A DNA stretch of 34,079 nt. It comes from an uncultured Spartobacteria bacterium (GTDB lineage: Bacteria; Verrucomicrobiota; Verrucomicrobiia; Chthoniobacterales; Chthoniobacteraceae). Of this stretch, positions 6,804 through 31,786 are shown piece by piece. The notes under the pieces are model-generated. The model was not told the DNA's origin. It saw only the letters and a program-made list of their open reading frames with translations, and searched no databases. The position numbers and the translations under genes are program-made. The stretch spans positions 1 through 34,079 of the forward strand of contig CAIZLD010000063.1 of the NCBI GenBank assembly GCA_903933715.1. The letters are read 5' to 3'. Positions within the stretch are counted from its first letter, which is position 1. Every line of letters begins with the position of its first letter.

Positions 6804-7907
6804 ATGCGTCCCCTACTCACCTTAGCGCTCGTAACCTACAACCAGGAAAAGTTTATAGCGCAGGCGGTTCAATGCGCATTCGCCCAGACCTATTCCCCGC
6901 TGGAAATCATTCTCTCCGACGACGCTTCCACCGATGGGACGTTTGAGATTTTGCGGAAAATGACGGAACAATACCGGGGTCCGCACCGGGTCGTTCTCAA
7001 CCGGAACGAGCAAAATTGCGGTCTTGCCCGGCAGGTCAATCAAATCGCCCGCCTGGCCAAAGGGGAACTCGTTTTAGCCGCAGCCGGAGATGATTTATCC
7101 ATTCCGGAACGCACCGAGATTCTTTTCAAAGCCTGGAACGATACCGGACGCGAGGCGACCTGTCTGCATTCCCGGGTCACCCACATCGATGTCGCGGGCC
7201 AGCCAACAGAAGCTCCCGCCTGGGAGCATCTCGGCGAACCGACTTATCGGATCATCTCGCAAAAAATCACGCCACTCGAATACATCAAGACCCAGCAACC
7301 GGATGTTCTGGGCTGCACCTGCGCCTGGGCTCCGTCGCTCTTCAAGACGTTTGGCGATCTCCCCGAAGATGTTATTCATGAAGATAACGCGATTGTGTTC
7401 CGGGCGTTATTGCAGTCCGGCTCGATCCTTTTCGTCGATACCCCTTTGGTGAAATACCGGGTACACGGCGGGAACCTGTTTAACTCCCGCAACGAAAATC
7501 AGGATACCATTCAGGAGATTGAAAACCAGGGCAAGAGGATGGCTCGCAATTTCACTCGCCGCGCCATCATGCACCGCGTCTTTGGCCACGATATCCGCAC
7601 GGCATTCCTCGAAGGGCTTATCGCGGAACCGGAGTTTTATCCCGCTTACCACTTGACGCTTCGAATGCAGCGGCTTTTCAAGCAGCAGCGAGAGTTCATG
7701 ACGGCGCGCTTGCCGCGAAAGCTCAGCCTTTTAATCCAGCTTTATTTCACCGATATCAACCGATCCCGTCTCGGAAAACTGGCGCTCCGGCTGCTCCCGC
7801 CGCGCGCCATTCACGTTCTTAAAAAAGCGCGAAACGGCGTTCGGTCTCCCCTCCAAAAATGCCCTCCTGAAAACAGGGCTCAACCCGTGGATGCTGTATG
7901 CGAGTAA
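6804..7907 (+). CDS. Family 2 glycosyltransferase
   Basis: An N-terminal GT-A domain opens with LTLALVTYNQEKFIAQAVQCA, the nucleotide-sugar binding ILSDDASTDGT and the AAAGDDLS acidic motif. HEDNAIVFRALL and VDTPLVKYRVHGGN follow near residues 190-230, as is usual in GT2 enzymes of O-antigen and exopolysaccharide loci. It is expected to transfer a sugar from a nucleotide donor in the cytoplasm; donor and acceptor cannot be read from sequence. The C-terminal third is basic with no clear membrane anchor. Its stop overlaps the start of the adenylation gene by 10 bases, so both are likely co-translated. Confidence 0.9.
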   Translation: MRPLLTLALVTYNQEKFIAQAVQCAFAQTYSPLEIILSDDASTDGTFEILRKMTEQYRGPHRVVLNRNEQNCGLARQVNQIARLAKGELVLAAAGDDLSIPERTEILFKAWNDTGREATCLHSRVTHIDVAGQPTEAPAWEHLGEPTYRIISQKITPLEYIKTQQPDVLGCTCAWAPSLFKTFGDLPEDVIHEDNAIVFRALLQSGSILFVDTPLVKYRVHGGNLFNSRNENQDTIQEIENQGKRMARNFTRRAIMHRVFGHDIRTAFLEGLIAEPEFYPAYHLTLRMQRLFKQQREFMTARLPRKLSLLIQLYFTDINRSRLGKLALRLLPPRAIHVLKKARNGVRSPLQKCPPENRAQPVDAVCE

Positions 7908-9424
7908 ATGTGATCGAATACTTTGAACAAGGCGCGCGGATTCAATGCCCGGATAAAATCGCGGTTCACGACCCGTGCGGGCAATACACTTTCGCGCAAC
8001 TTGAAAGATATGCCAAAAATTGCGCCGCGCTGATCCTTCAGCGCACCACCGAAAAGCGGCAACCGATCGCCGTTTTCCTTCCCAAGAGTGTTCAAAACAT
8101 CGCGGCCGATCTGGGCATCCTCTACAGCGCCAACGCGTATGCGAATCTCGACATCAAATCGCCTCCCATGCGGCTGAAGGGAATGCTCGACCACCTTAAT
8201 CCCAGCGTGATCATCACCACTTCCTCCTGCGCGGGAATGCTCTGCGAATTGGGAATCTCGATCGACAGGCTCCTGATGATCGAGCAGGCGATGGGCGATA
8301 AAATGCTTTTCGAAAACAGCGTGCTCCTGGAGAGGGTCGAAACGCTGATCGACACCGATCCTTACTGTTTTATTCATACTTCCGGATCGACGGGAAACCC
8401 CAAGGCCGTTGCATTAAACCATCGCAGCACGATGGACTTCGCAGATTGGGCTTTTGAACGGCTCGGGCTGGATGGCACTGAAGTGATGGGCAGTCTCGCC
8501 CCGATTGTTTTCGACGCGTACACGCTGGAGTTTTGCCTGCTTCTGGCCAAGGGAGCTACCCTCACGGTCGTTCCGGAAACGTTGTCCGCGTTTCCGACGC
8601 GGCTCGTCGAGTTCATCGCCTCCGAACCGGTCAATTTCCTATTCTGGGTGCCCACCATCATGGTCAACATCGCCAACCAGGATCTGCTCGCGGGAATCAA
8701 TCTGGATCGAATCCGGAAAGTGTTTTTCATCGGCGAAGTTTTCCCGACCCGGCATCTTAATTACTGGCGGCGTCATCTGCCCAAGGCCCAGTTTGTGAAT
8801 CTCTACGGCCCGATTGAAACCACCGTGGCGTCCACCTATTTCATCGTGGACCGGGAAATGGCTGACGACGAGAAACTCCCGGTCGGGTTCCCTTGCAAAA
8901 ACACCGATATTCTCATCCTCAACGACCAGAACCAGCCCGCCAAAACCGAGGAGCCCGGTGAAATCTGCGTTCGCGGAAGCTCCCTGGCGCTTGGCTATTA
9001 CGACAACCCTGAACGGACCGCGCTGGGGTTTATTCAAAACCCTCTCAATCCGCATTACCCCGAATGGATCTACCGCACCGGCGATAGCGGGTATCGGAAC
9101 GAACGCGGCGAGATCATGCTTCTAGGGCGCAAAGATTTTCAAATTAAACATCAAGGCTACCGCATCGAACTGGGCGAGATCGAACACGCCGTGCTCAAGA
9201 TCGATGGGGTCCGCAACGGCTGCGTGGTCTACAACCACGCCAAGAAAGAGATCGTGCTTTATTACGAAAGCGCGGAGGAGTTGACGCCCGCATACCTGCG
9301 GGAATCATTGATGCCGATCCTGCCCAAATACATGCTCCCGACGGCCTTCCGTTGGATGGAGTTAATGCCGCGCAACGGCAATGGAAAAATCGACCGGGCC
9401 CGCTTGGTCGAAAGCGTTCATTAG
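7898..9424 (+). CDS. Stand-alone adenylation enzyme (amino-acid or acyl activating, NRPS/DltA type)
   Basis: This ANL-superfamily enzyme would activate a carboxylic acid as acyl-AMP and pass it to a phosphopantetheine thiol. All core motifs are visible: TSGSTGNPK (161-169), VFDAYTLE (204-211), NLYGPIETT (301-309), YRTGD (392-396), GRKDFQIKHQGYRIE (410-424) and NGNGKID with the catalytic Lys at about 497. Asp206 in the FDA motif matches the residue that binds the alpha-amino group in NRPS A domains, favouring an amino-acid substrate. A by-eye reading of the ten pocket positions gives roughly D-A-L-F-F-I-L-V-A-K, which I cannot assign. It has no fused carrier or condensation domain; two free carrier proteins lie just downstream and are the likely partners. 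Confidence 0.9.
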   Translation: MRVNVIEYFEQGARIQCPDKIAVHDPCGQYTFAQLERYAKNCAALILQRTTEKRQPIAVFLPKSVQNIAADLGILYSANAYANLDIKSPPMRLKGMLDHLNPSVIITTSSCAGMLCELGISIDRLLMIEQAMGDKMLFENSVLLERVETLIDTDPYCFIHTSGSTGNPKAVALNHRSTMDFADWAFERLGLDGTEVMGSLAPIVFDAYTLEFCLLLAKGATLTVVPETLSAFPTRLVEFIASEPVNFLFWVPTIMVNIANQDLLAGINLDRIRKVFFIGEVFPTRHLNYWRRHLPKAQFVNLYGPIETTVASTYFIVDREMADDEKLPVGFPCKNTDILILNDQNQPAKTEEPGEICVRGSSLALGYYDNPERTALGFIQNPLNPHYPEWIYRTGDSGYRNERGEIMLLGRKDFQIKHQGYRIELGEIEHAVLKIDGVRNGCVVYNHAKKEIVLYYESAEELTPAYLRESLMPILPKYMLPTAFRWMELMPRNGNGKIDRARLVESVH

Positions 9425-9434
9425 TATGCAGCAT

Positions 9435-9501
9435 CCGCAGATTTCGCAGATGAACGCAGATTTATACTGAAATAATCGGCGAGAATCTGCGCAATCTGCG
9501 G
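9435..9501. repeat. Hairpin repeat of the GCAGAT/ATCTGC family
   Basis: The left arm CCGCAGATTTCGCAGATGA (9435-9453) is nearly complementary to the right arm (9483-9501), with a third GCAGATT in the loop. The right arm nearly matches 361-381. The element fills most of the 117-base gap between the adenylation and GNAT genes and is the only real break in the gene order between 6804 and 13147. It may act as a transcript-stabilising or attenuating hairpin, or simply be an inserted repeat. Confidence 0.7.
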
Positions 9502-9541
9502 ATTCTCTTCTTCCGAAAAACCACAACTTACTAGTTTCGGC

Positions 9542-10363
9542 ATGATTCCCGTTCAAAGCCCCGAAGAGATCTACGGAGCGATCGCGCTGATCAAAGCGGA
9601 TGCGAGTGACTTCCGCACGAATTTCTATCCCACGCCGGGCAAACTGGCAGGGTGGGTCGCGCAGAAACAACTCTGGATGGCTGTCGGCAGAGAAGCCGCG
9701 TTTTTTCTGCGCCAGGAATGTGATTTCTGGCATCTCTATTTCTGCGCTGCGGACCAGGATGGGCTCGGGCGGGGACTTGACGACTTGCCGGAATTGAGGA
9801 CGCAAAAAATAATCAGCGACGTGATCGGGGGGGACGACTCATTGCTCGCCACCATGGAAGCGGCTGGGCTGAGGCGTTATAAACGGCTTTTTCGAATGAC
9901 GCGTGCGGCACAGCAGGAGAGGCCGGTCGTTCCCGATGACCCTTGGCGGGAGCAACTGTTTTTCGCGCGGGAATCGGATGGGGAGGCTGTGCGCGGGTTG
10001 ATCGAGTCTGCGTTCGACCGTTACGCCAAGCAAATTCCCCCGGCCCAAGAAATCCATGCCGCCATCGAAGCCCACCATGTGTTCGTTCTCAAACTCGGAA
10101 CTGAAATTGCGGGTTTGCTCCATTTTGATCTTCATGGGGCGACCTCGACGCTCCGGTTCTGGACGGTGGCACGGAGATTCCGGGACCGGCATGTCGGCGG
10201 AGCCCTGATGCGGCATTATCTGGCCTCCCAATGCGACGTTCGCCGGTTTGTGCTCTGGGTCGATGAAGGCAACGACAACGCCATTTCGAAGTATCGGCGC
10301 TACCATTACGATCACGATGGGGTGTCTGACCATATCCTGGCAAACGAATGCATTCCTGCATGA
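9542..10363 (+). CDS. GNAT-family acyltransferase (putative)
   Basis: This 273-residue protein has a recognisable GNAT core in its C-terminal half. RFRDRHVGGALMRHYL (about 218-233) resembles the acyl-CoA/pantetheine-binding motif A, and WVDEGNDNAISKYRRYHY (about 244-261) the C-terminal strand-helix that precedes the acceptor loop. The N-terminal half could be a degenerate second GNAT domain, but I see no motif there. Position between an adenylation enzyme and an ACP suggests transfer of an activated acyl group from a carrier or from CoA to an amine, possibly an amino sugar. Its stop overlaps the ACP start (ATGA). Confidence 0.7.
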   Translation: MIPVQSPEEIYGAIALIKADASDFRTNFYPTPGKLAGWVAQKQLWMAVGREAAFFLRQECDFWHLYFCAADQDGLGRGLDDLPELRTQKIISDVIGGDDSLLATMEAAGLRRYKRLFRMTRAAQQERPVVPDDPWREQLFFARESDGEAVRGLIESAFDRYAKQIPPAQEIHAAIEAHHVFVLKLGTEIAGLLHFDLHGATSTLRFWTVARRFRDRHVGGALMRHYLASQCDVRRFVLWVDEGNDNAISKYRRYHYDHDGVSDHILANECIPA

Positions 10364-10590
10364 AATTAATCGCCAACATCCTCTCGGAAATTCGCCCTGA
10401 ATACGACTTCACTGCGTCACACGACTTCATCGGCGAAGGAATGCTCGATTCGTTTGACATTGTGACGCTCGTTTCGGCTTTGGAAAAAAATTATTCCATC
10501 TGCATTCGCGGAACGGACATCGTACCCGAACATTTCCAAAACGAAGCCGCGATCCAAAGCCTGCTGAAATCCTACGGAGTCTGCTTATGA
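10360..10590 (+). CDS. Acyl carrier protein, first of two
   Basis: This small acidic helical protein has the phosphopantetheine attachment motif GMLDSFDIVTL, with the target Ser at residue 31. I chose ATG 10360 (MKLIANILSEIRPEYDF, 76 residues) rather than the in-frame ATG 10348, because it forms an ATGA overlap with the preceding stop and begins at the expected first helix. It is probably loaded by the adenylation enzyme at 7898 or serves the adjacent ketoacyl synthase. It is not the housekeeping AcpP, whose motif is usually GADSLD and which normally sits beside fabF/fabG. Confidence 0.85.
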   Translation: MKLIANILSEIRPEYDFTASHDFIGEGMLDSFDIVTLVSALEKNYSICIRGTDIVPEHFQNEAAIQSLLKSYGVCL

Positions 10591-11654
10591 ACCTGACGTT
10601 CCACCGCAAACGCATCACCGGAATATTGTCGGTTATTCCCGCCCGCGAACTGTCGTTTATTGAGGAAATGAAGCGGTATCATTTTCCGGAGGCCCGTTCG
10701 CTCAAGCTTATGGAAGTGATGGGCTACAACAAGCGGCGCGTGGCAGAGCCGTGCACCTGCTTTTCCGATCTCGCGGTCTACGGATTGCAGCGCCTTTTCG
10801 AGCGCGGCCTCCTCAAGCCGGACGACATCGATGCCCTGCTGGCCGTCACGCATAGCGCGGACTACATTATTCCGCCCACAAGCAATGTGATCCAGGGGCG
10901 GCTCGGCTTGAAACACGATCTCCTGTGTCTGGACATCAGCCAGGCCTGCGCCGGTTTTGTGGTCGGACTAAGCCAGGCCTTCATGCTGCTTGAGCAGGAG
11001 AACATCCGCAAAGTCGTCCTCATCAACGGGGACATTTTCAGCCGGAGAACCTCCCCAAAAGATCGCAGCATCCATCCGCTGGTCGGCGATGCCGTCACCC
11101 TCACCGTTGTCGAGCGCGATTCTTCCGATTCCGTCATTCACGCCGCCATCAAAATGGATGGTTCGCGTGGAGAGGCGCTCGTCATCCCCGCGGGGGGGAT
11201 GCGCCTGCCTTGCTCGGAGGAAACCGCCGTTCTCGAAGATGCGGGCGACAATAATTTTCGCGCAAAAGATCATCTACGCATGGACGGCTCGGCGATCTTC
11301 AACTTCGTGCAAACCGAGGTGCCGCCCATGGTGGACGAGCTGCTCGCGCGCGCCGGGAGCAATGTCGATGAAATCGACTATTTTATCTGCCATCAAGCCA
11401 ACCGATACATGATCCAAAAGCTGGCGGAAAAAATGAAAATCCCGCTAACCAAAACGCCTTCCAATATTGTTGAGAAGTTCGGGAACAGCAGCGGGGCGAC
11501 CATCCCGGTTGCCATCACCTTCAACCTCGGTGACCAGCTTAAAACTTCCGAGGTCAACGCCTGCCTTTTGGGCTATGGAGCGGGATTGACCTGGGCAGCC
11601 ATGCTGCTGCGCCTGGGCAATTTGAATTTTTGCGAGTTGATTGATTTCCCCTAA
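10587..11654 (+). CDS. 3-oxoacyl-ACP synthase III (KAS III/FabH-like)
   Basis: This 355-residue thiolase-fold enzyme has a complete KAS III triad: Cys121 in DISQACAGFVVGL, His269 in FICHQANRYMI and Asn300 in EKFGNSSGATIP. It could condense an acyl starter with malonyl-ACP, or act as an acyl-transferring KAS III homologue. It starts within the ACP stop (ATGA, 10587-10590) and is followed 12 bases later by a second ACP, so it works in a carrier-protein context. Pseudomonas flagellin-glycosylation loci encode KAS III and ACP homologues thought to make a 3-hydroxybutyryl group on viosamine, which is the closest precedent I know. No ketoreductase is seen nearby. Confidence 0.9.
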   Translation: MNLTFHRKRITGILSVIPARELSFIEEMKRYHFPEARSLKLMEVMGYNKRRVAEPCTCFSDLAVYGLQRLFERGLLKPDDIDALLAVTHSADYIIPPTSNVIQGRLGLKHDLLCLDISQACAGFVVGLSQAFMLLEQENIRKVVLINGDIFSRRTSPKDRSIHPLVGDAVTLTVVERDSSDSVIHAAIKMDGSRGEALVIPAGGMRLPCSEETAVLEDAGDNNFRAKDHLRMDGSAIFNFVQTEVPPMVDELLARAGSNVDEIDYFICHQANRYMIQKLAEKMKIPLTKTPSNIVEKFGNSSGATIPVAITFNLGDQLKTSEVNACLLGYGAGLTWAAMLLRLGNLNFCELIDFP

Positions 11655-11666
11655 AACGGAGTATCT

Positions 11667-11903
11667 ATGGACGATTTTCTCAAAAAACTGGCTGCTGTTT
11701 TGGAATTGGAAACAATTGAACCGCACGACTCCCTCAAAGCATTTCCGCTGTTGGACTCGCTGGGGGTTCTATCGATCATCGCCATGCTCGACACCGAGTA
11801 CGGCGTCAACATCCATACAGCAGACGTGATGCGCATGGCGACCCCCGAAGAACTCTGGAACCATGTACTGCAGATCAAAAATTCCGAAAAACACTGCACC
11901 TAA
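11667..11903 (+). CDS. Acyl carrier protein, second of two
   Basis: A 78-residue carrier protein with motif FPLLDSLGVLSIIAML and attachment Ser31. A GGAG sequence precedes the ATG. Its sequence differs clearly from the ACP at 10360 (for example, LETIEPHDSLKAFPLLDSLG against YDFTASHDFIGEGMLDSFD), so the two are likely specialised for different partners, such as starter loading and chain delivery. It is flanked by the KAS III and the first of two paralogous GNATs. Confidence 0.85.
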   Translation: MDDFLKKLAAVLELETIEPHDSLKAFPLLDSLGVLSIIAMLDTEYGVNIHTADVMRMATPEELWNHVLQIKNSEKHCT

Positions 11904-11920
11904 CCTCCTGTCTCCCTGCC

Positions 11921-12538
11921 ATGAACCATACGATTGTAACCGAAGGATTCGGCGTCCGCATTCGCCCCGTAAAAATGGAAGACGCCTCTTATCTTGTATG
12001 GTTGCGCCACCTTGAGCATGCCAAGGGCAAGGTGGGCGACTCCGCCATGGATGTCAGGGGTCAGGAAGAATGGCTGCGGGAATATTTTAAACGCGAGGGG
12101 GATTATTATTTCATGATCGAAACGCCGTGCGGGATTCCCATGGGTTCCTTTGGCATTTACGACATGGTGGGGAAAAGCGCCGAGTTCGGCCGCTGGATCA
12201 TCGCTCCCGAATCCCCGGCGGCGATTCCCGGCGCCATTCTCGGGATCGATATCGGATTTGAAACCCTCGGCTTGCAGCAATTGCGCACCAAGGTGGTCCT
12301 GACCAACCGGCGCGTGATTCAATTGGAGCGGAGAGTCGGGTTCAAGGAGACAAACCATGAGCCGTCCATCCAAATCATCGGCGGCAAACCGGCGCCTCTC
12401 GTCCACATGGCCTTGAATGCGGAGGACTGGTTCCGGAACCGCCCGAAATTGAAAGCAGCCGCCGTCATCATGTCGGTCCATGTCGCCGAATGGGAGCAGG
12501 CGTCCAAAACGCTGTTTTCGGAAGTCTCAAAAGCCTAA
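11921..12538 (+). CDS. GNAT acetyl/acyltransferase, RimJ/RimL type, copy 1
   Basis: A 205-residue GNAT protein. FGVRIRPVKMEDASYLVWLR is the typical N-terminal strand-helix, ESPAAIPGAILGIDIGFETLG replaces the usual Q/RxxGxG/A loop region, and VVLTNRRVIQLERRVGFKE is the characteristic C-terminal asparagine-containing helix. A clear paralogue follows three bases downstream. Relatives in sugar loci N-acylate nucleotide-linked amino sugars (PseH-like); the acyl donor here could be CoA or one of the ACPs. No ribosome-binding site is evident. Confidence 0.8.
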   Translation: MNHTIVTEGFGVRIRPVKMEDASYLVWLRHLEHAKGKVGDSAMDVRGQEEWLREYFKREGDYYFMIETPCGIPMGSFGIYDMVGKSAEFGRWIIAPESPAAIPGAILGIDIGFETLGLQQLRTKVVLTNRRVIQLERRVGFKETNHEPSIQIIGGKPAPLVHMALNAEDWFRNRPKLKAAAVIMSVHVAEWEQASKTLFSEVSKA

Positions 12539-12541
12539 TCT

Positions 12542-13147
12542 ATGCGCCATTTGATTGTTGCTGAAAATTTTGGGATTCGCCTTCGGCCCGTGGGGCTGGG
12601 CGATTCCTCTTTTATTGTTTGGTTGCGGAACTTGAACCACGTCATCGGAAAAGTGGGAGATTCGGCGATCGATCCCGCAGACCAGCAGGAATGGCTGGAA
12701 GCGTATTTCGAACGCCCGGGGGATTACTATTTTGTCATTGAAACCGGTTGCGGCATTCCGGTCGGAACCTACGGTCTTTACAATATCAGCGGGACCAGCG
12801 GGGAATCGGGACGCTGGATTGTGCACCCGGAAGTTCCCGCGGCGATTCCGAGCATTCTGCTGGGATTCCAGATCGCGGTGGAACAGCTTGGCCTGAAACA
12901 TCTGGTGGCCCATACCGTCTCCACAAATCACCGCGTGCTATCGCTGAACCGGAAGCTCGGGTTTCAGGCAACCGGCGGCGAATCCGAGCTGCAAATGATC
13001 GACGGCAAACCGGTGCGCCTGGTTCAATTTGAGTATCATCTACAGAACTGGGCCAAGGCGGTTCGCGCCCTTGAACCGATGGCCCGGGTAGCGGAAGAGA
13101 ATATCCGGAGCTGGGAGCGGAATAGGGTATCGCCCCGCCCGGGCTGA
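12542..13147 (+). CDS. GNAT acetyl/acyltransferase, RimJ/RimL type, copy 2
   Basis: This 201-residue protein is a tandem paralogue of the preceding gene. They share FG-R-RPV, VWLR-L-H, GKVGDSA-D, Q-EWL--YF, GDYYF-IET, CGIP-G, GRWI--PE-PAAIP and TN-RV--L-R--GF, estimated by eye at about half of positions identical. The three-base intergenic gap suggests coupling. The duplication implies two related transfers, on different sugars or positions, or with different acyl groups. It is the last gene before a 103-base gap and may end a transcription unit. Confidence 0.8.
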   Translation: MRHLIVAENFGIRLRPVGLGDSSFIVWLRNLNHVIGKVGDSAIDPADQQEWLEAYFERPGDYYFVIETGCGIPVGTYGLYNISGTSGESGRWIVHPEVPAAIPSILLGFQIAVEQLGLKHLVAHTVSTNHRVLSLNRKLGFQATGGESELQMIDGKPVRLVQFEYHLQNWAKAVRALEPMARVAEENIRSWERNRVSPRPG

Positions 13148-13250: not shown

Positions 13251-16200
13251 ATGAGGATGATTCGATTGCTTGTCGCTATCTTGGCGGGGGGGATGTGTTC
13301 ACTGACTGCGCACGCCGCAGAGCCACGGGTCGCCATTCATGATTCGGAGTTGACCCGCGCCTTGATCAACCTCCCGGCGAGCGCCACGACCCCGCAGGGC
13401 TCCGATACGACGGGCTACGAATGGTGGCTGCTTCAGTGGCGTTACCCAATTCTTCCGGAGTCGATGAGGGAGGCTCTCACGTCCGATGGGACGCCTTACA
13501 CGGTCGTCAGCGATGCTGATATTCGCAATGGTGCGCTCCTGGACGCCAATGGCGCTCCCCAATACCCGATCGTCATCAGCTTGGCCGCGGAGGCGGTCAG
13601 CGATGATGAAGTGGCTCCCCTGCTCAAATATGTCCAGGCAGGCGGAACCGTGCTCGTCGGCTCCTCCTCGTTTACGCGAAAGGTCGATGGAACAACCCGG
13701 GGGGATTTTGCGATAGCCAATGCGATGGGCGTTCACATGGTTTATTCCAAGCTCGTCAACTGGATCGGCAATTACACGATTTCCAAGCAGATCGACCATC
13801 GTCTGGTCTCCCATATTCCCAGCGGCGCGCTCAACTGGAGAATGCCTTTATCGTCGGATGAAATCTCGTGGGGCATTTCGCCCAGCCATAGCCACTCGGG
13901 GCCGCATCTCGCCTGGCGGGTCTGGGCCGACGGAGCGCAAACGCTCATCCAGGATGACAAAGATCCTTACCTGCTCGTCAAAGATTATGGAAAGGGGCGG
14001 TTTATCTATTATGCGCCGATCAATCCCCTGCTCGGACACGGAGGTTGGGCTCCGGGGATGTATGCTTACGGGATTTTTCGGGAGGCGATCCAGTGGGCAT
14101 TTGAATCGCTGCAAACCCCGCTCCCCCGGCTCAGCCCATGGCCGTTTCCGTACGACGCCGCCTTCAACGTGCGGCATGATTTCGAGAACTTCCAGGACAT
14201 GATCAACAAGATCGAATCTTCGGCGCGGTATGAATATTCCGCCGGAGCCAAGGGCGATTATTACTTTTGCACGGGAACCTTGCGGGTTGATATGGGCAAT
14301 TCGCCCCTGACCATCGCCAGTCTGCAACGCGCGGTGACAAACTACCACGCGACGATCGGCCCGCATAACGGCGGGTTGAGCAATCCGGCCAATTCCACGC
14401 TCACCAACGCCGACTATGATTATTGGCACTGGGGACTGGACGAGGCGCTTGATACCACCCCGGCCGGCTATGCCAGCGGCAAGGCTTATGCGCAGATCTC
14501 CCTGGCCAACTCGTTCAATGATGTTGAAGGCTGGCTGGCCGGCCTGGGCAATGCCAATGGGTTGCGCGTCTGGGTCTCTCCCTATTTCAATTCCACGCGC
14601 GAGGAGTCTCTCGACATCCTGGCCCAGTTGGGCGTTTCGGTCTCGGGGGAACAAAAGCTGACTCCTTTTCCGCACTGGACGCTTTCCACTCGCACCTCGG
14701 GCAAACGCTATCCATTTATCAGCGTCCCGGTGAGCGACTGGTATGTGGGAACCTCGATGGCGCAATCGCTCGATTATCACAACTCCGCGACGATGCGCGC
14801 GGCGGTGGATTTTTATTACAATCTCGGCGCTTTGGTGAACATCTATTCGCATGCTTCGTCCGACTCGGGCTTGCCCAGCGAATACGTGAGTTATTGCGCA
14901 GCCAAGCCGAAAATCTGGCCGACCAATGCCGCCGAACTTTATGCCTGGTGGTGGAATCGCTCGGGCGTGCAAATCAGCCCGGCCCTGACTTCAAGCGGCA
15001 GTCAAAGCCGGATCACCCTGGCGATCTCGGGAACTGGCGATCCTCAAACCGCCGTGGAGGTGCGAATCCCTGATTCCGGTTTCTCCGGGCTCGAAGTCCT
15101 GCGCGATGGGGTTCCCGCTTCCGCAGATCAATTCCGAGTTGATGGGCAGCGGGTGCGCGTGCTCGCCGGAGCCCAGGCGCGCAGCGTGGAGGTCCGGTAC
15201 ATTTTCCAGGCTATTGCGAGGGATGACGCTTACACGCTCACCGCCGGGCAGAGCTTGACGACAGCCGCTCCCGGCGTACTCGCCAACGACGGCGGGACAA
15301 ACCTCACTGCCACTCTCGTCACTGCCCCTTCCAACGGAACGCTCCAACTTAACGCGGATGGCGGGTTTATTTACACGCCGACCGCCGGATTCAGCGGCAC
15401 TGACCGGTTTACTTACGTGGCACAAAGTGGCACCAGCAGCACGGCTCCGGCCACGGTAAATCTGACGGTCAACCCGGCAACAAGCGTATTGTTCTCAACC
15501 GACTTCAGCACCGGCACGATCTCTCCCTGGACGAGCATCTTTGGAACCTGGAGTTCGATCAATGGCGCGATGCAAGGCTCCAGCGCCACGCAAAATTACG
15601 GCTACGCTTATTACAATGCGGCGTGGGGGGATTACACGTTGCAAGGCCGGGTCCAGCTCCCTGCCGGAGCATATGGCGGCGGCTTGGGCGGGCGGCTCAA
15701 TGCGGCGACCGGGGCGCATTATGGAGTATGGCTCTACCCGGTAAGCTCCACGTCGTCCAAACTGTACCTCGTTAAGTTCAGAACCTGGACTTCCTGGGGC
15801 GGCACGCCAATGGCACAGGCGTCCATCCCTGCCATTGGAACAAGCTGGCACACGCTGAACGTGACGTTCCAGGGCAACCGCATTCAGGTCTCCTGCGACG
15901 GCATCCCGGGCATTGATGTGATCGACAACGGCTTTGACAGCCGGGCCGCTTACACCAGCGGCGGCATCACGGCCGATCTGTGGACCAACAACACCGCCTA
16001 TACGATGAACGTGGACGATATCGTTGTCACGGGCGTGGCGGTGGGCAATCGCGCACCGGTTGCCAACAACGATACCTACAGTCTCGTTTCGGGAACGTCG
16101 CTCAATCTCGCGGCTCCCGGCATCCTCGCCAACGACACCGATGCGGACGGGAACCCCCTCACCGCAGTGCTGGTCGCCGGGCCCGTCCACGGAACGGTTA

Positions 16201-16913
16201 ATTTAAATGCCAATGGCGGCTTCACCTATACTCCCGTTGCCGGGTTTAGCGGCACCGATCAGTTTACGTATCAAGCCAACGACGGCCAGGCGCTTTCCGG
16301 CACCGCAACCGTCAATCTCACGGTGACGTCCACGCCGACGGCAACGGTTTTATTCTCCAGCGACTTCAGCTCCGATACAATCTCCCCCTGGAATGTGATC
16401 ATGGGAACCTGGACCGCGAGCGGCGGAATCATGCAGGGGGTCAGCACGGTCCAGAATTATGCAGCCGCTTCCTATCCGGCGAGCTGGGGCGACTATACCC
16501 TTCAGGGTCGCCTCCAGTTTGCCTCCGGCGCCTTTGGCGGCGGATTGAGCGGACATTTTAACCCGGCTACCGGCGAACGCTACGCCGCGTGGATCTATCC
16601 CGAAGGCTCCTCCGGCGGCTCAGCGGTCCTCAAGCTCGTCAAATTCCGTGGGGCGACCAGTTGGAGCGGAACACCGATGGCCCAAGTGCCGCTGCCGAGT
16701 GTCGGCACCGCATGGCACACGCTCAAATTAACCTTCCAGGGCACCCGGATCCAGGTCGCCTTCGACGGCACGCCGAAGATCGACGTGACCGACAACGGAT
16801 TCGACAACCGGGCCGCCTACGCCACCGGCGGCATCACGGCAGAACTTTGGATCTATCCCACCGTCACCCCCATGAACGTGGATGACATCACCGTTTCAAC
16901 GCTCGGAAATTAG
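13251..16913 (+). CDS. Large secreted polysaccharide deacetylase-like protein with two cadherin-like/jelly-roll modules
   Basis: The protein starts with a signal peptide (RLLVAILAGGMCSLTAHAAEP). The N-terminal part to about residue 290 has a Rossmann-like look. Residues about 300-570 resemble a NodB-type deacetylase: FNVRHDFEN carries a candidate metal Asp, with IGPHNGG and NIYSHASSDSG as candidate His motifs. This assignment is tentative. From about 655 a two-part module occurs twice: a cadherin-like/Big_9 domain (DDAYTL...GVLANDGG...GTDRFTYVAQ) and a LamG/DUF1080-like jelly roll (VLFSTDFSTGTISPW...GDYTLQGR...GGITADLW). No C-terminal sorting signal or anchor is visible. Its place inside the glycan locus, between acyl genes and sugar-nucleotide genes, suggests action on the exported glycan in the periplasm or outside. 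Confidence 0.8.
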   Translation: MRMIRLLVAILAGGMCSLTAHAAEPRVAIHDSELTRALINLPASATTPQGSDTTGYEWWLLQWRYPILPESMREALTSDGTPYTVVSDADIRNGALLDANGAPQYPIVISLAAEAVSDDEVAPLLKYVQAGGTVLVGSSSFTRKVDGTTRGDFAIANAMGVHMVYSKLVNWIGNYTISKQIDHRLVSHIPSGALNWRMPLSSDEISWGISPSHSHSGPHLAWRVWADGAQTLIQDDKDPYLLVKDYGKGRFIYYAPINPLLGHGGWAPGMYAYGIFREAIQWAFESLQTPLPRLSPWPFPYDAAFNVRHDFENFQDMINKIESSARYEYSAGAKGDYYFCTGTLRVDMGNSPLTIASLQRAVTNYHATIGPHNGGLSNPANSTLTNADYDYWHWGLDEALDTTPAGYASGKAYAQISLANSFNDVEGWLAGLGNANGLRVWVSPYFNSTREESLDILAQLGVSVSGEQKLTPFPHWTLSTRTSGKRYPFISVPVSDWYVGTSMAQSLDYHNSATMRAAVDFYYNLGALVNIYSHASSDSGLPSEYVSYCAAKPKIWPTNAAELYAWWWNRSGVQISPALTSSGSQSRITLAISGTGDPQTAVEVRIPDSGFSGLEVLRDGVPASADQFRVDGQRVRVLAGAQARSVEVRYIFQAIARDDAYTLTAGQSLTTAAPGVLANDGGTNLTATLVTAPSNGTLQLNADGGFIYTPTAGFSGTDRFTYVAQSGTSSTAPATVNLTVNPATSVLFSTDFSTGTISPWTSIFGTWSSINGAMQGSSATQNYGYAYYNAAWGDYTLQGRVQLPAGAYGGGLGGRLNAATGAHYGVWLYPVSSTSSKLYLVKFRTWTSWGGTPMAQASIPAIGTSWHTLNVTFQGNRIQVSCDGIPGIDVIDNGFDSRAAYTSGGITADLWTNNTAYTMNVDDIVVTGVAVGNRAPVANNDTYSLVSGTSLNLAAPGILANDTDADGNPLTAVLVAGPVHGTVNLNANGGFTYTPVAGFSGTDQFTYQANDGQALSGTATVNLTVTSTPTATVLFSSDFSSDTISPWNVIMGTWTASGGIMQGVSTVQNYAAASYPASWGDYTLQGRLQFASGAFGGGLSGHFNPATGERYAAWIYPEGSSGGSAVLKLVKFRGATSWSGTPMAQVPLPSVGTAWHTLKLTFQGTRIQVAFDGTPKIDVTDNGFDNRAAYATGGITAELWIYPTVTPMNVDDITVSTLGN
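15217..16910 (+). repeat. Tandem duplication of a cadherin-like plus jelly-roll module
   Basis: Two units of about 840-860 bases (15217-16033 and 16051-16910) encode the same domain pair. Shared protein blocks include GVLAND/GILAND, GGF-YTP-AGFSGTD-FTY, LFS-DFS--TISPW, WGDYTLQGR-Q, SWHTL/AWHTL, IDV-DNGFD-RAAY--GGITA and MNVDDI-V. The near-identical blocks indicate an internal duplication that is still recent or kept similar. Confidence 0.85.
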
Positions 16914-16927
16914 TGGAGGAATAAAAG

Positions 16928-17338
16928 ATGCCTATCGAAGACTGCCAGCTCATTGAACTGCCAAGAATCGCGGACCCGCGCGGCAATCTGACCTTTGTCG
17001 AGGGATGCCGCCACATCAACTTCGCCATCAACCGGGTGTTTTATCTCTACGACGTGCCGGGCGGGGCTGACCGGGGCGGCCATGCGCTCAAAACGTGCCA
17101 TCAGTTTCTGATTGCCATGTCCGGGAGCTTCGACGTCATCGTCTACGATGGCCGGGAAAAGCAGCGCATCTCGCTCAATCGCTCCTACAGAGGTCTCTAT
17201 TTACCGCCGATGATCTGGCGCGAAATGGACAATTTTTCATCCGGCTCCGTCTGCCTGGTCCTCGCCTCCGAAGCGTATTGTGAGGCCGACTATTACCGCG
17301 ATTACAACAGTTATCTCAAAGCCGTGTCCGAATCATGA
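16928..17338 (+). CDS. Sugar 3,4-ketoisomerase homologue (FdtA/QdtA/WxcM cupin family) with an altered active-site motif
   Basis: A 136-residue cupin. Family members convert dTDP-4-keto-6-deoxyglucose to the 3-keto isomer that a DegT aminotransferase then aminates. Matching features are [30 protein letters not shown], and [18 protein letters not shown]. Characterised members have HAH; here the codons read CAT-GCG-CTC, giving His52-Ala-Leu54, so the second catalytic-site His is lost. A GGAGG lies 8-12 bases upstream of the ATG. The stop overlaps the aminotransferase start (ATGA). Either the enzyme works without that His, has a changed reaction, or is inactive; the sequence cannot decide. Confidence 0.85.
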
Positions 17339-18441
17339 AAATCCCTTTTGTTGATTTCAACGCACCTTATATTGAACTTAAAGACGCCCTGGACGCAGCC
17401 TACCGCCGGTTCATGGGATCGGCCTGGTATGTGCTGGGCCATGAAGTGGAGGCGTTCGAGGGCGAATATGCGGCCTATTGCGGCTCCAGACATTGCATTG
17501 GGGTGGGTAACGGGCTCGACGCGCTTTACCTGATTTTGAGAGGCTACGGGATTGGCGCCGGGGATGAGGTGATCGTCCCGTCCAACACCTACATCGCCTC
17601 CTGGCTGGCGGTCTCGCAGGCCGGGGCAACGCCCGTTCCGGTGGAGCCGGACCCGCGCACTTACAATATCGATCCGGACCGCATTGCGCAGGCGATCACA
17701 CCGCGCACCCGCGCCATCATGGCCGTGCATCTGTATGGCCAGAGCGCGGAGATGGACCCGATTTGCGCTCTCGCCCGGGAACACGGATTAAAGGTGATTG
17801 AAGATGCAGCCCAAGCCCAGGGAGCGCGTTACAAGGGGCGGCGCACCGGGCATTTGGGAGATGCCGCGGGACACAGTTTTTATCCCACCAAAAATCTCGG
17901 CGCGCTGGGGGACGGAGGCGCCGTGACGACCGACGATCCCGAATTGGCTGACCGCATCCGCATGCTGCGCAACTACGGCTCCAAACAGCGTTATCATAAT
18001 GAGTTCAAGGGGGTCAACTCGCGGCTGGACGAATTGCAAGCCGCGTTCCTGAGGGTCAAACTTCGCAAGCTCGACGACTGGAACGCCCGCCGTCAAACGG
18101 TCGCCCGGTATTACCTTGAGGCGTTCGCGGATCAGCCCGACCTCATCCGGCCCTGCATCCCGGCGGGATCGCAACCGGTGTGGCATCAATTTGTCGTGCG
18201 CCATCCCCAACGCGATCTCTTCCAACAACGGCTTGCGGATGCCGGGATCGCCACCCTCATTCATTATCCGGTCCCGCCCCATTTGAGCCCCGCTTACGCC
18301 GACAGTCATTTTACCCAAGGCGACTACCCGATTGCCGAAGAACTCGCCCGGACCATCCTCAGCCTGCCGATCGGCCCGCACATGGTCCGCGAACAGATTG
18401 AAGAAGTCACCACGTCCATTCAACGCATCCTCCACTCATGA
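17335..18441 (+). CDS. DegT/DnrJ/EryC1/StrS aminotransferase (FdtB/QdtB-like)
   Basis: A 368-residue PLP enzyme that would transfer an amino group to a nucleotide-linked keto sugar. The Schiff-base Lys is K186 in [29 protein letters not shown] (156-168) supplies the Asp that contacts the PLP ring nitrogen, and [11 protein letters not shown] (59-69) is the phosphate-binding start of the fold. The upstream ketoisomerase homologue makes amination at C3, giving a dTDP-3-amino-3,6-dideoxyhexose, the most likely role. The gene overlaps both neighbours by 4 bases (17335-17338 and 18438-18441), so the three are translationally coupled. Confidence 0.93.
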
Positions 18442-19076
18442 TCAAAAAAATCGTGCGGCGGATTCGCCGTGAAGCACAGCACCTGCGCTCGCGGTGGTTC
18501 CAATGGCAACTCCGCCGGACAACCCGGAGGATCGCTATCGGTGAGACAGTGCGCTTCAATGTGCCGGTGCGCAATGGCGGAGCGGGCTCGCTGGTGATCG
18601 GGGAACACAACTGCTTTGGCTATCCCCTCGCCGCCCGGCTCGGCTCCGGCGAGATCCTTTTGCAAGCCCGCAATGCGGGCTCCGAGATCACCATTGGCGA
18701 AGGCAACACCTTCAGCAATAACATATCCATTGTCGCCAACCAACGCGTCACGATCGGCAATCACTGCGTCATGGGAGACCAGGTCGCCATCATTGACTGC
18801 GATTTTCACGAACTCTCTCCGGAAACACGCAATCGAAGCGCCGGGCACATTCGACCGGTTCACATCGGCAACAACGTCTGGCTGGGCAGCCGCGTGATGG
18901 TGCTCAAAGGGGTTACGATTGGCGACAACTCGGTCATCGGCGCAATGAGCATGGTCAACAAATCGATTCCGCCCAACTGTCTTGCCGCCGGGTTCCCAGC
19001 CCGCGTGGTGCGTCGACTCGACGAACCGCCCGAGAAACAAAGACGACCCAACGAAACCATATCCTCTTGTGTCTAA
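18438..19076 (+). CDS. Hexapeptide-repeat acyltransferase (left-handed beta-helix)
   Basis: This 212-residue protein has hexapeptide repeats from about residue 50 to 180 ([52 protein letters not shown]) and ends with the usual [17 protein letters not shown]. His124 in IIDCDFHEL is the probable catalytic base. The N-terminus is very basic ([17 protein letters not shown]). As the third gene of a ketoisomerase-aminotransferase-acyltransferase set, it is the best FdtC/QdtC candidate for N-acetylating the amino sugar. O-acetylation of the glycan is the alternative. The GNATs upstream could share or replace this step. Confidence 0.87.
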
Positions 19077-20577
19077 GACATCCCAAAAGTCTTACGGCCA
19101 AATTCTCAAATCGACGGCCCTGATCGGCGGAACGCAGCTCTGCAACCTCGCCATTGGCATGCTCCGGGTGAAGGTACTGGCCCTTTTGCTGGGCCCGTCC
19201 GGCATCGGTTTGGCGGGGATGTACCAGGCGGCGACAGGCATGATCGCAACGCTTGCCGGGATGGGGATCGGTTCGGCAGGCGTTCGGCAAATTGCGGAAG
19301 CATCGGCCTCGGGAGATGCGAGCCGGGTTGCGCGCACGGTGGCCCTTTTGCGCCGGGCCTCGGCGATTTCGGGAGTGATCGGTATGGCGCTGGTGCTGTT
19401 TCTAGCCAAGCCGCTGGCCCAAACCACCTTTGGCACAGACCGCTACGCCACCGGAGTGGCGCTGGTCTCGCTGACGCTGCTCTTCGGAGGCATCTCGGCG
19501 GGACAGACGGCTCTGCTACAAGGCTTGCGACGGCTAAAGGATCTGGCGGCGTGCAATTTGCTGGGCTCGATCTTTGGCACGATGGCGAGCATCACTTTGG
19601 TTTATTTTCTGCGCGAGCGCGGCGTGGCGGCGTTCCTGGTCGCGGTGTCCGGTTTCGGGATTCTCACATCGTGGTGGTATGCGCGCAAAGTGCGGATCGA
19701 AGCGGTCCATCTGCCGTGGCGGGAGACGTTCCGCGAGGCCCGCCCGCTGCTGGGACTGGGAGCTTCGTTTCTCGCCACGGGTCTCATCGGCGCGGGCATC
19801 ACCTACCTGATTCGCATCCTCATCATCCATCATCTCGGGATGGAAGCCGTGGGCCTCTTTACCGCTTCCTCCACCCTCTCCCTGCTTTACATCGGAGTCG
19901 TAATCAATGCGATGGGAGCCGATTTTTATCCCCGGCTTACTTCCATTGCAAACCGTCACCAGGAGGTTAATGAACTGGTGAATCAACAGGCGGAAATGGG
20001 AATATTACTGAGCCTTCCGGGGCTGTTGGGAACTCTTTTGCTGGCCCCGTGGGTGATGCGGATTTTTTATTCGGCGGAGTTTGTGGCTGCGGCGGATTTG
20101 ATTCGCTGGCAAATCCTGGGAATGGGGTTGCGGGTCGCCTGCTGGCCGCTGGGCTACATTCTTTTAGCCAAGGGAATGGGGAAGGCTCTCGTCACGATTG
20201 AGGCGATTTCTTCGCTCATTGAAATCGGCGTCATTTTCCTGGGGCTGCGCCTCTGGGGGCTTGAAGGCTGCGGTATCGGCTTCCTGGTTTTCGTGACCAT
20301 GGCCACCATAAATATGACCCTGGTCAGCCGTCACATCACCGGCTTCCGCTGGGCGAAAAAATCGGTTGCGGCTCTGTTGACCAGCATTGGGTTCACTTGC
20401 GCCTTATTGCTGGAACTCCGGTTCGCTCCGGAAAACCTTAAGCTGCCGGTCGGCTTTGCATTGGTTGCCGCCGCTGCGGCCTGGTGCCTTTCGCAACTGA
20501 ACCGGGTGCTCGGGACGGACCTCCTGTCCGCCATGCGGGAGCGTTTTTTTTCACGACCTAAAGCGGAAACACCTTAA
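19069..20577 (+). CDS. Wzx-type polysaccharide flippase (MOP superfamily)
   Basis: A roughly 502-residue polytopic membrane protein of the O-antigen/teichoic-acid translocase class. It opens with SYGQILKSTALIGGTQLCNLAIGMLRVKVLALLLGP..GIGLAGMYQ, typical of Wzx/WzxE, and has about a dozen hydrophobic segments. It should flip undecaprenyl-linked glycan units across the inner membrane. I chose GTG 19069 ([10 protein letters not shown]), since the longer frame from 18982 only re-reads the acyltransferase gene. This start overlaps that gene's stop by 8 bases. No wzy polymerase is found in the window. Confidence 0.87.
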   Translation: MSKTSQKSYGQILKSTALIGGTQLCNLAIGMLRVKVLALLLGPSGIGLAGMYQAATGMIATLAGMGIGSAGVRQIAEASASGDASRVARTVALLRRASAISGVIGMALVLFLAKPLAQTTFGTDRYATGVALVSLTLLFGGISAGQTALLQGLRRLKDLAACNLLGSIFGTMASITLVYFLRERGVAAFLVAVSGFGILTSWWYARKVRIEAVHLPWRETFREARPLLGLGASFLATGLIGAGITYLIRILIIHHLGMEAVGLFTASSTLSLLYIGVVINAMGADFYPRLTSIANRHQEVNELVNQQAEMGILLSLPGLLGTLLLAPWVMRIFYSAEFVAAADLIRWQILGMGLRVACWPLGYILLAKGMGKALVTIEAISSLIEIGVIFLGLRLWGLEGCGIGFLVFVTMATINMTLVSRHITGFRWAKKSVAALLTSIGFTCALLLELRFAPENLKLPVGFALVAAAAAWCLSQLNRVLGTDLLSAMRERFFSRPKAETP

Positions 20578-21814: not shown

Positions 21815-22447
21815 ATGATGCTCCCCAACCCCTGCGTCGCGTCCCGATTCAAACCCTTTAGCTGGGTTTTTCTTTTCTCTCTCATGGCCCTGATGGTTTT
21901 CAGCGGCTGTCAAACCCGCAGAGTTGCAGTGATCCCGGATAGCTGGATGTCCCCGCCTCGCGGATGTCTTGCCCCCGGCGATGTCGTGCGGCTCTCGTTC
22001 TCCGGGGCTCCCGAATACAACCAGATTCAGAAAGTCCGGGCGGATGGACGGATCAGTCTGCCGATTGTGGGCGAGATTGTCGCCGATGGAAAAAAACCGG
22101 GCGAATTGCAAAAAGAACTGGCGATTCTTTACAAACCGCAAATGCAAAACAACGAAGTCGTCGTGGCTTTGGAAAACGGAGCGATGCCGGTCTACGTTTC
22201 CGGGTTTGTAAACCGGCCCGGCAAAATCATTATTGACCGGCCGACCACCGTCCTGGAGGCGATCATGGAAGCCGGCGGATTCCAGCAGGGATATGCCAAT
22301 CCCCGGAAGGTGATTCTCATGCGCAAAAGCAACGGCCAGCACGTTCCCACCCGGCTCGACCTAAGCCCCGCACTCAAAGGGCAGCCGATGTGCGCCACTT
22401 ACGTCAGCGCCTTTGACGTTATTTACGTGCCGGAAAGCATTTTCTAA
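21815..22447 (+). CDS. Polysaccharide export outer-membrane lipoprotein (Wza/BexD-like, short)
   Basis: A lipoprotein signal peptide ends in VFSGC, with the lipidated Cys at residue 32. The Poly_export domain follows: LAPGDVVRLSFSGAPEYNQIQKVRADGRISLPIVGEI. An SLBB-like domain comes next: MPVYVSGFVNRPGKIIIDRP..TVLEAIMEAGGF. At 210 residues it is much shorter than E. coli Wza (about 380) and has only one SLBB-like domain and no C-terminal membrane helix. It probably forms, or helps form, the exit channel for the glycan made by the upstream genes. No co-polymerase/kinase (Wzc) gene is adjacent. It is the last gene before the strong terminator. Confidence 0.88.
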   Translation: MMLPNPCVASRFKPFSWVFLFSLMALMVFSGCQTRRVAVIPDSWMSPPRGCLAPGDVVRLSFSGAPEYNQIQKVRADGRISLPIVGEIVADGKKPGELQKELAILYKPQMQNNEVVVALENGAMPVYVSGFVNRPGKIIIDRPTTVLEAIMEAGGFQQGYANPRKVILMRKSNGQHVPTRLDLSPALKGQPMCATYVSAFDVIYVPESIF

Positions 22448-25719: not shown

Positions 25720-25724
25720 AAAAT

Positions 25725-27221: not shown

Positions 27222-27255
27222 AGGGAGGAGGTGTTGGAGCGTGTGGAACGACTTT

Positions 27256-30921: not shown

Positions 30922-31786
30922 GCCCCAGGACACCACTAATCCGGCAGCCCACGCCAAAGCAGTTGCGATATTTACTCCAAGCGCCAATGATCGGGCGTTC
31001 GAAGCAGCTGAACGGGTGCGCTTTAAAATCCTGGGAATGCATTATGCGGATGTCGGGCCCGAGTGGAGTTCCCAAGGAAGGCTGGAGACGGATTATGTCC
31101 ATCATCTCGCCTTTGCGCTGAGTGGGTCCGCGTTTGTCATCCATGAAGGTAAAACGATGGAATTACGTCCCGGGTTTGCTTATTGGCTACATGGGAACAC
31201 TCCGGTCAGGCGCAAATGTCCGCGCCGATTTGAGCTCTATTACTTGCGGTTCCGCTGCGAATGGCATGAGGGAGTCGATGCGCTGCTGGACTGGCCCGGA
31301 CGCCGTCCGATTTTTCTGGGCCGATGGGATACCCGCCAGTTGCCACAAGAATGGCGACGCCCCTCGCTAAGCACGAATGCAATCCTCCGACTTAGGGGAA
31401 TGCTTGGGTTGTGGCTGGCCGAACACTTTGAGGGTTTAGACGAATTCATCACGCATCACCGGAAAGCACATGCTCGGTTTGGCAAGGTTTTGCGCCACAT
31501 TGAAGAACAGTGTGATGCAAGCGTGCGCGTGGAAGATCTTGCGCGGCTGCACGGCTCCTCATTGAGCGCCTTTTCTCGAATGTTCACGCGGAGCATGAGG
31601 ATCAGCCCCAAACTCTACATGAACCGAAAACTCAACGAGACCGCCTGCCGGATGCTGCTGGATAGTGACCAATCGCTGGCCGGCGTTGCGGCAAGCCTCC
31701 GCTTTTCGGATGAATATTATTTCAACCGCTTTTTCACGCGGATGAACGGCATCCCGCCAGGGATCTACCGCCGGCGCTTTCGATAA
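30920..31786 (+). CDS. AraC-family transcriptional regulator
   Basis: A 288-residue regulator. The N-terminal half has a cupin-like sensor (HHLAFALSGSAFVIHEGKTMELRPGFAYWL). The C-terminal 100 residues contain the double helix-turn-helix: VRVEDLARLHGSSLSAFSRMFTRSM and LAGVAASLRFSDEYYFNRFF, ending in GIPPGIYRRRF. It is divergent from the glycosidase operon and probably controls it in response to a released sugar. The ATG at 30920 overlaps the opposing gene's ATG; residue Met40 (31037) is a plausible later start. The shared AT-rich stretch at 30840-30920 is the best place for operator and promoters, though I see no clear consensus. Confidence 0.9.
   Translation: MPQDTTNPAAHAKAVAIFTPSANDRAFEAAERVRFKILGMHYADVGPEWSSQGRLETDYVHHLAFALSGSAFVIHEGKTMELRPGFAYWLHGNTPVRRKCPRRFELYYLRFRCEWHEGVDALLDWPGRRPIFLGRWDTRQLPQEWRRPSLSTNAILRLRGMLGLWLAEHFEGLDEFITHHRKAHARFGKVLRHIEEQCDASVRVEDLARLHGSSLSAFSRMFTRSMRISPKLYMNRKLNETACRMLLDSDQSLAGVAASLRFSDEYYFNRFFTRMNGIPPGIYRRRFR

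Follow-up and report, generated by a model that had tools for sequence, protein, structure and literature searches.

A seven-gene cassette at positions 7898–13147 of a 34 079-nucleotide stretch of DNA (the window), one contig of the 2.8 Mb genome of a Verrucomicrobiota lake bacterium, is a two-module variant of acyl-carrier protein (ACP)-based acylation of glycan amino sugars. It encodes an adenylation enzyme (Aden), a tandem-GNAT acyltransferase (GNAT1), two carriers (ACP1 and ACP2), a β-ketoacyl-ACP synthase III (KAS III) and two further GNATs (GNAT2 and GNAT3), and it is a conserved unit present in two phyla. The chances appear even that these proteins form a two-carrier assembly line placing a composite acyl group, an amino acid joined to a short ketide, on a deoxythymidine diphosphate (dTDP)-linked 3-amino-3,6-dideoxyhexose of a surface polysaccharide, with either 3-amino-3,6-dideoxygalactose (Fuc3N) or 3-amino-3,6-dideoxyglucose (Qui3N) as the sugar. 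An earlier note on this DNA had proposed that a contiguous adenylation enzyme, ACPs, KAS III and GNATs within a glycan locus make an unusual acyl group for a surface sugar; seven plus-strand open reading frames (ORFs) of these types do lie there and the idea is largely right in outline.

Carrier modules and their enzymes

The earlier proposal depended on the gene set being conserved elsewhere, and the Aden–GNAT1–ACP1–KAS III block together with ACP2 is found again in a further six genomes, of which five are from Verrucomicrobiota and one is represented by a Paenibacillus plasmid (locus L047) in which Aden and KAS III are 47–48% identical to those of the window. The full set, including a large secreted-type protein (BIG), is found in the same order in two congeners (G003/L017 and G001/L018; KAS III 74 and 73% identical, respectively), which are Verrucomicrobiota metagenome-assembled genomes, one labelled Spartobacteria; glycosyltransferases flank the cassette in L018. 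In loci L025 and L068, the latter from a different family than the window, the order is Aden–GNAT1–ACP1–KAS III–ACP2–small GNAT–GNAT2/3–FdtA–FdtB–Wzx, without BIG or the hexapeptide-repeat acetyltransferase (Hexa) of the window. The small GNAT has 146 residues and stands beside one FdhC-like GNAT, and the Wzx-type gene following FdtB is 44–45% identical to that of the window. Locus L042 comes from another family of the phylum; its five core genes precede those of a short-chain dehydrogenase/reductase (SDR) and of a 373-residue protein with no Pfam match that is guessed to be a transferase. In the Paenibacillus cellulosilyticus locus L047, ACP2, an SDR and an AAC(3)-family acyltransferase are grouped with Aden, GNAT1, ACP1 and KAS III. 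An SDR, which would be a dedicated 3-oxoacyl reductase, is present in L042 and L047 and has no match in the window, L017, L018, L025 or L068. Since the set is kept in order in two congeners and its core in four further genomes, the arrangement is more than a chance association.

The pairing of the parts was scored, using profiles built from the cassettes, on KAS III loci from the phylum and on two plasmid records. All five core parts are present in seven of the seven cassettes, and an ACP2-type carrier lies near 23 of the 25 non-cassette KAS III loci. ACP1, GNAT1 and a strong Aden (68 bits at most, compared with 820–935 bits in the cassettes) are missing from all 25 of these loci, the ACP1 and GNAT1 profiles being trained on cassette members and biased to their own kind and the loci having been picked mostly by KAS III score. 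In one locus, L043 (G095), Aden (671 bits) and ACP1 occur but KAS III, ACP2 and GNAT1 do not, so that the ACP1 subfamily is kept in the seven cassettes and also with Aden alone. Among 378 genomes of the phylum, GNAT1 turned up in just two, both of which carry the full cassette. This pairing suggests two modules, one placing an amino acid on ACP1 through Aden and the other a ketide on ACP2 through KAS III, and from the restriction of GNAT1 to loci with both modules we infer that it bridges them and is needed only where both occur. The two distinct ACPs recognized earlier are present, but they probably carry two different building blocks.

Aden matches the AMP-binding family PF00501 (E = 2.8 × 10−62) and scores 320 bits against the amino-acid adenylation model TIGR01733, above its cut-off of 317.4 bits, but it is not a DltA equivalog (TIGR01734, 268 bits against a cut-off of 559.85; PRK04813, 285.3 bits against 476). 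The amino-acid-type Asp206 named in the earlier note, equivalent to Asp235, lies in an FDAYT motif and is invariant across seven relatives; Lys497 and the A3, A5 and A10 motifs are also present. A pocket code, DALFFILVAK, was obtained by hand mapping onto the GrsA positions and, having no clear match, was dropped as decisive evidence for the amino acid. ACP1 scores 17.4 bits against PF00550, below the cut-off of 20.8 bits, but the serine of its DSFD motif is still invariant in homologues and Asp34–Ser35 is invariant in ten aligned sequences; ACP2 scores above the PF00550 cut-off. The DS serine is kept in both carriers, and a gene for an AcpS-type pantetheinyl transferase is present (77.8 bits, G000:C76), in line with the pantetheinylation on which the earlier proposal also depended. 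It is quite probable that Aden loads an amino acid onto ACP1.

As judged by sequence comparison, the substrate-binding core of Aden looks to have been exchanged between genera. The L017 and L068 enzymes are 70–82% identical to each other in this core (about residues 150–310), where they are mostly 42–60% identical to those of the window, L018 and L025, while the L068 enzyme groups with the window and L018 by its N-terminal part (97/96) and shares 68–88% identity with L025 in its C-terminal part. Trees of the N-terminal part and of the core conflict (L017 10896–12410, L068 280–1803 and window 7898–9421), in a comparison of seven sequences to which uneven evolutionary rates could still contribute. 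The hand-read pocket codes differ along the same lines (DNLFLALVDK in L068). Exchange of the selectivity core is known from peptide synthetases, and the apparent exchange in Aden, together with the differing codes, suggests a choice of amino acid that varies from lineage to lineage. In L043 (8510–12085) Aden and ACP1 are followed by a 603-residue ORF with ferredoxin-like cysteine motifs, and the pocket code is that of the Paenibacillus enzyme.

KAS III has the complete Cys–His–Asn triad described earlier, with Cys121, His269 and Asn300 invariant in six aligned sequences. It matches PRK12880 over its full length, below the cut-off, and by TIGR00747 is not a housekeeping FabH (170.5 bits against a cut-off of 292.1); such a role is also discounted because another FabH-type (housekeeping-type) gene is present on contig C19 (G000:C19:18995). 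The cassette KAS IIIs fall in a single clade (100/100), and KAS III probably works with ACP2. Two further loci that lack the cassette, L069 (G158) and L070 (G337), combine two or three KAS III genes with ACP2-type carriers, SDRs and an AMP ligase of another type. The top-scoring KAS III of these loci sits on a long branch inside the cassette clade, for which reason these closest non-cassette KAS IIIs were dropped as a clue to the substrate.

The three GNATs are present but are not equivalent, with GNAT1 a tandem-GNAT protein of the core and the other two FdhC-like paralogues. The predicted GNAT1 model (predicted local distance difference test, pLDDT, 79.8) matches the tandem GNATs VipF, MshD (mycothiol synthase) and MAB_4324 over residues 1–270 (Z = 15–17), a likeness of fold and not of function, and the fold also matches WecD; the Pfam match of GNAT1 is weak and concerns the C-terminal GNAT. 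A GNAT2/3 profile matches FdhC (PDB entry 5kta) with an E value of 5.7 × 10−19 over 133 profile positions, the next PDB match being at 4.9 × 10−4, and both copies are kept side by side in L017 and L018. More distant relatives from this phylum and from Paracoccus adjoin FdtA, FdtB or KAS III genes, FdtA and FdtB stand beside the cassette in three genomes (directly after it in L025 and L068) and RmlB is encoded elsewhere in the genome (G000:C48). These neighbours and the adjacency of FdtA and FdtB support transfer to dTDP-3-amino-3,6-dideoxyhexose, and GNAT2 and GNAT3 can be expected, with fair confidence, to transfer the acyl group to a 3-amino sugar, Fuc3N or Qui3N. The transfer to an amino sugar envisaged in the earlier note is supported for these two, which are closest to FdhC and are likely to be the only sugar transferases, but not for GNAT1, which is likely to belong to the acyl-making core.

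Proposed assembly and alternatives

From what is observed, namely the genes present and their families, the active-site and carrier residues, the conservation and the pairing of the modules, we infer substrates, an order of amide coupling and a product as follows. Aden would adenylate a small amino acid and load it onto holo-ACP1, and KAS III would make a β-ketoacyl group, probably acetoacetyl, on ACP2. GNAT1 would link the ACP2-bound acyl group through an amide to the amine of aminoacyl-ACP1, giving N-acetoacetyl-aminoacyl-ACP1. GNAT2, GNAT3 or both would then move the acyl group to the dTDP-sugar produced by RmlB, FdtA and FdtB, and the decorated sugar would be polymerized and exported through the products of neighbouring genes. 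Where a dedicated ketoreductase is lacking, the N-acetoacetyl-aminoacyl group may cyclize to a 3-hydroxy-methyl-5-oxoprolyl group, whereas with an SDR, as in L042 and L047, the product would be N-(3-hydroxybutanoyl)aminoacyl. Structural reasoning suggests that the two oxoprolyl groups known from O-antigens are the aldol cyclization products of N-acetoacetyl-alanine and N-acetoacetyl-glycine; this cyclization would draw on the proposed products of both modules and needs the ketone, which agrees with the absence of an SDR from the five cassettes with FdhC-like GNATs. Amide coupling by GNAT1, as opposed to another order, is a tentative assignment that falls a little short of an even chance, and it is preferred to direct condensation. 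The fuller proposal is more doubtful: that amide formation takes place without a condensation domain, a tandem GNAT joining the ACP2 ketide to the ACP1 amino acid and the product being moved to a 3-amino sugar, and that the amino acid is varied by exchange of the Aden core.

Several points weigh against a composite group assembled in this way. The Aden pocket code, as read by hand, fits no single known amino acid, and no candidate for an oxoprolyl cyclase is evident. GNAT1 could simply be an N-acetyltransferase, and the presence of two FdhC-like GNATs might reflect the transfer of two distinct acyl groups. The separate clade of the cassette KAS IIIs (100/100) makes an altered substrate possible, and the constant adjacency of the ACP1 and KAS III genes fits KAS III acting on an ACP1-bound substrate as well. 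Most of the Verrucomicrobiota loci are taken from metagenome-assembled genomes, and the O-antigens that resemble the proposed product, partly on 3-amino-3,6-dideoxyhexoses, are likened to it by their structures only.

The alternative that survives best, although it is unlikely, is direct condensation, in which KAS III would condense aminoacyl-ACP1, N-acylated by GNAT1, with malonyl-ACP2 to give a β-keto-γ-amino chain (statine-like once reduced) for transfer to the sugar by GNAT2/3. Of the readings considered, this one comes nearest to the single condensation suggested in the earlier note. ACP1 and KAS III are encoded next to each other in all seven cassettes, the cassette KAS IIIs are a distinct clade, ACP2 is paired with an SDR in L042 and L047 and such a condensation would require precisely two carriers. 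However, a γ-amino-β-hydroxy acyl group is not known from any bacterial glycan, and other KAS III/ACP2 loci manage without ACP1. N-Acylaminoacyl and oxoprolyl glycan groups, in contrast, are documented (PMC10609480).

It is rather improbable that the modules work independently, each producing an acyl group of its own (aminoacyl on ACP1 and 3-oxobutanoyl or 3-hydroxybutanoyl on ACP2), and that GNAT2 and GNAT3 attach these groups to different sugars or at different positions. The two GNATs are diverged paralogues standing side by side in three species, and the modules are also found apart. However, L025 and L068 have one FdhC-like GNAT (in addition to the 146-residue GNAT) and yet keep both modules and GNAT1; separate groups become less likely still because L042 and L047 also keep both modules and GNAT1 with one evident candidate transferase each.

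Simple D-alanylation or N-acetyl-aminoacylation, with Aden and ACP1 acting as in the Dlt system, GNAT1 only N-acetylating and KAS III and ACP2 contributing little, is very unlikely. An N-acetyl-alanyl Qui3N is known (PMC3210612) and the DltA models do match Aden at 268–285 bits, but these scores are far under the equivalog cut-offs and KAS III, with its catalytic residues intact, is kept together with ACP2 in all seven cassettes. A small secreted natural product or lipid in place of a glycan substituent is the least likely of the alternatives and only faintly plausible: adenylation enzymes, carriers and KAS IIIs are also natural-product enzymes and L042 and L047 have no Fdt genes nearby, but FdhC-like GNATs and FdtA/FdtB/Wzx adjoin the cassette in three genomes and glycosyltransferases surround it in L018.

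The surrounding locus

The cassette of the window lies in a co-directional gene run extending from a GT2 glycosyltransferase gene (6804) to a Wza-type export gene (22447), in which genes overlap or are closely spaced, the exceptions being 117 bp ahead of GNAT1, 103 bp ahead of BIG and 124 bp ahead of the Wza-type gene (Table 1).

Table 1. Features of the cassette and of the gene run that contains it.
Feature	Position	Strand	Description
Aden	7898..9424	+	Stand-alone amino-acid adenylation enzyme, 508 residues; PF00501, TIGR01733; A3, A5 and A10 motifs
Dispersed palindromic repeat	9430..9540	.	Between Aden and GNAT1; outside the mechanism
GNAT1	9542..10363	+	Tandem-GNAT acyltransferase, 273 residues; PF00583, E = 5.7 × 10−7
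ACP1	10348..10590	+	Aminoacyl-type carrier, Ser35 in LDSFD; PF00550, E = 0.0054
KAS III	10587..11654	+	β-Ketoacyl-ACP synthase III, C121-H269-N300; PF08545/PF08541
ACP2	11667..11903	+	Second carrier, Ser in LDSLG; PF00550, E = 5.4 × 10−7
GNAT2	11921..12538	+	FdhC-like N-acyltransferase; PF13302
GNAT3	12542..13147	+	FdhC-like paralogue of GNAT2, 47% identical; PF13302
BIG	13251..16913	+	Secreted-type 1220-residue immunoglobulin (Ig)/cadherin-repeat protein; PF17963, PF06439
FdtA/QdtA type	16928..17338	+	dTDP-4-keto-6-deoxyglucose 3,4-ketoisomerase; PF05523, E = 9 × 10−55; PDB matches FdtA, QdtA
FdtB/QdtB type	17335..18441	+	Sugar 3-aminotransferase; PF01041; best PDB match 2oga (labelled Transaminase), next QdtB 3frk
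Hexa	18438..19076	+	Hexapeptide-repeat acetyltransferase, galactoside/maltose O-acetyltransferase-like; best PDB matches LacA/Maa type
Wzx-type flippase	19015..20577	+	PF13440/PF01943
GT2 glycosyltransferase	6804..7907	+	PF00535; immediately upstream of Aden, 10 bp overlap
Wza-type polysaccharide export protein	21815..22447	+	PF02563/PF22461

The palindromic repeat is ATCTGCG-rich, with dozens of copies in the genome in both orientations and on many contigs, and is not found at the Aden/GNAT1 junction in L017, L018 or L025; it looks like a repetitive extragenic palindromic (REP) or miniature inverted-repeat transposable element (MITE)-type element inserted within the gene run. A check for foreign DNA showed that the G+C content of the cassette is similar to that of the neighbouring genes, with both ACP genes lower (47–49%). 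The KAS III and Aden profiles found no relatives among viral contigs, and a viral origin was rejected, phage records having given only FabH-type matches of 25–30% among the matches listed.

BIG follows GNAT3 in the window, L017 and L018 (66% identity in L017 and L018). It contains bacterial Ig/cadherin and 3keto-disac_hyd domains, its N-terminal ∼640 residues have no identified domain and its predicted model has a pLDDT of 33; being missing from L025 and L068, it was ruled out as an essential part. Hexa is an unlikely candidate for the sugar N-acyltransferase, as its nearest PDB entries are galactoside/maltose O-acetyltransferases with no QdtC listed and the gene is missing from L025 and L068. 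Between the flippase and the Wza-type gene is an ORF of 368 residues (20584–21690) with no Pfam match. Further upstream, a single ORF (4836–6743) fuses a lipid A acyltransferase (PF03279) and a GT9 heptosyltransferase domain. Downstream, an AraC-type regulator, a GH106 rhamnosidase, an MFS_2 sugar transporter and an α-L-fucosidase-like gene (24370–31786), adjoined by a tRNA-Arg at 31963, are probably a deoxysugar-glycan utilization locus.

Comparison with known systems

Many O-antigens and capsules contain amino sugars with N-acylated amino acids or oxoproline rings, the structures of which are published; no biosynthetic account of such composite groups was found in the open-access literature searched. 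The question becomes directly testable with a portable cassette that occurs in two phyla and has a defined gene for each proposed step, and the cassette provides a genomic marker for predicting such groups. If the proposed assembly is correct, it would supply a genetic route to these O-antigen substituents and would add a new use of GNATs and carrier proteins outside peptide synthetases, with the apparent pocket exchange as a source of surface variation. The statement in the earlier note that the unit had not been described stands, within the open-access literature, for the set as a whole and not for its parts, which are known from Pseudomonas syringae (VioS, ACP, VioR and VioB) and Escherichia coli O103 (FdhC).

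The KAS III/ACP2 half has a precedent in the viosamine island of P. syringae and its homologues in P. aeruginosa PAK, where a KAS III and a dedicated ACP within a glycan locus make a C4 acyl group for a dTDP-amino sugar, as proposed here (PMC3927599). VioS, ACP, VioR and VioB were assigned to the synthesis of N-(3-hydroxy-1-oxobutyl)-viosamine, with the glycan masses of mutants as support. Unlike the cassette, this island of seven ORFs has no adenylation enzyme, second ACP or tandem GNAT; its sugar is the 4-amino sugar viosamine and it includes a reductase, VioR, which has no counterpart in the cassette of the window (PMC3927599). In E. coli O103 and Salmonella enterica O55, as here, an FdhC-type GNAT stands beside FdtA/FdtB and the product is an N-acylated 3-amino-3,6-dideoxyhexose (PMC4869667; PDB entry 5kta). 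FdhC acts with RmlA and FdtAB towards Fuc3N(3-hydroxybutanoyl) in E. coli O103; the acyl group is 3-hydroxybutanoyl only, and the available part of that report mentions no KAS III, ACP or adenylation gene (PMC4869667).

The Aden/ACP1 half resembles DltA/DltC, in which a stand-alone adenylation enzyme loads a small carrier with an amino acid, but dltB and dltD were not seen among the annotated neighbours of the cassettes. A comparable mix of enzymes in a glycan locus, drawn from ACP, AMP ligase, KAS III and SDR, is presumably encoded by Campylobacter jejuni Cj1303–Cj1308. A parallel two-carrier set in Bacteroidota is found on a Parabacteroides distasonis plasmid (L049, NZ_OY725812.1), the capsule-type locus of which contains an acetyltransferase, two ACPs, an AMP-binding protein, a KAS III and an SDR; its adenylation enzyme scores 52 bits, compared with 820–935 bits for cassette members, and it has no GNAT1.

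The closest likeness to the would-be product is found in the O-antigens of E. coli O123, S. enterica O58, Proteus vulgaris O4, Plesiomonas shigelloides O74 and Vibrio cholerae O5, which combine an amino acid with a C4 unit (PMC10609480, PMC8074265). N-(3-Hydroxybutyryl)-D-alanyl on 4-amino-4,6-dideoxyglucose (Qui4N) occurs in E. coli O123 (PMC10609480) and (R)-3-hydroxybutyryl-L-alanyl-Qui4N in P. vulgaris O4 (PMC8074265), while the oxoprolyl forms are 3-hydroxy-2,3-dimethyl-5-oxoprolyl on Qui3N in P. shigelloides O74 and 3-hydroxy-3-methyl-5-oxoprolyl on Fuc3N in V. cholerae O5 (PMC10609480).

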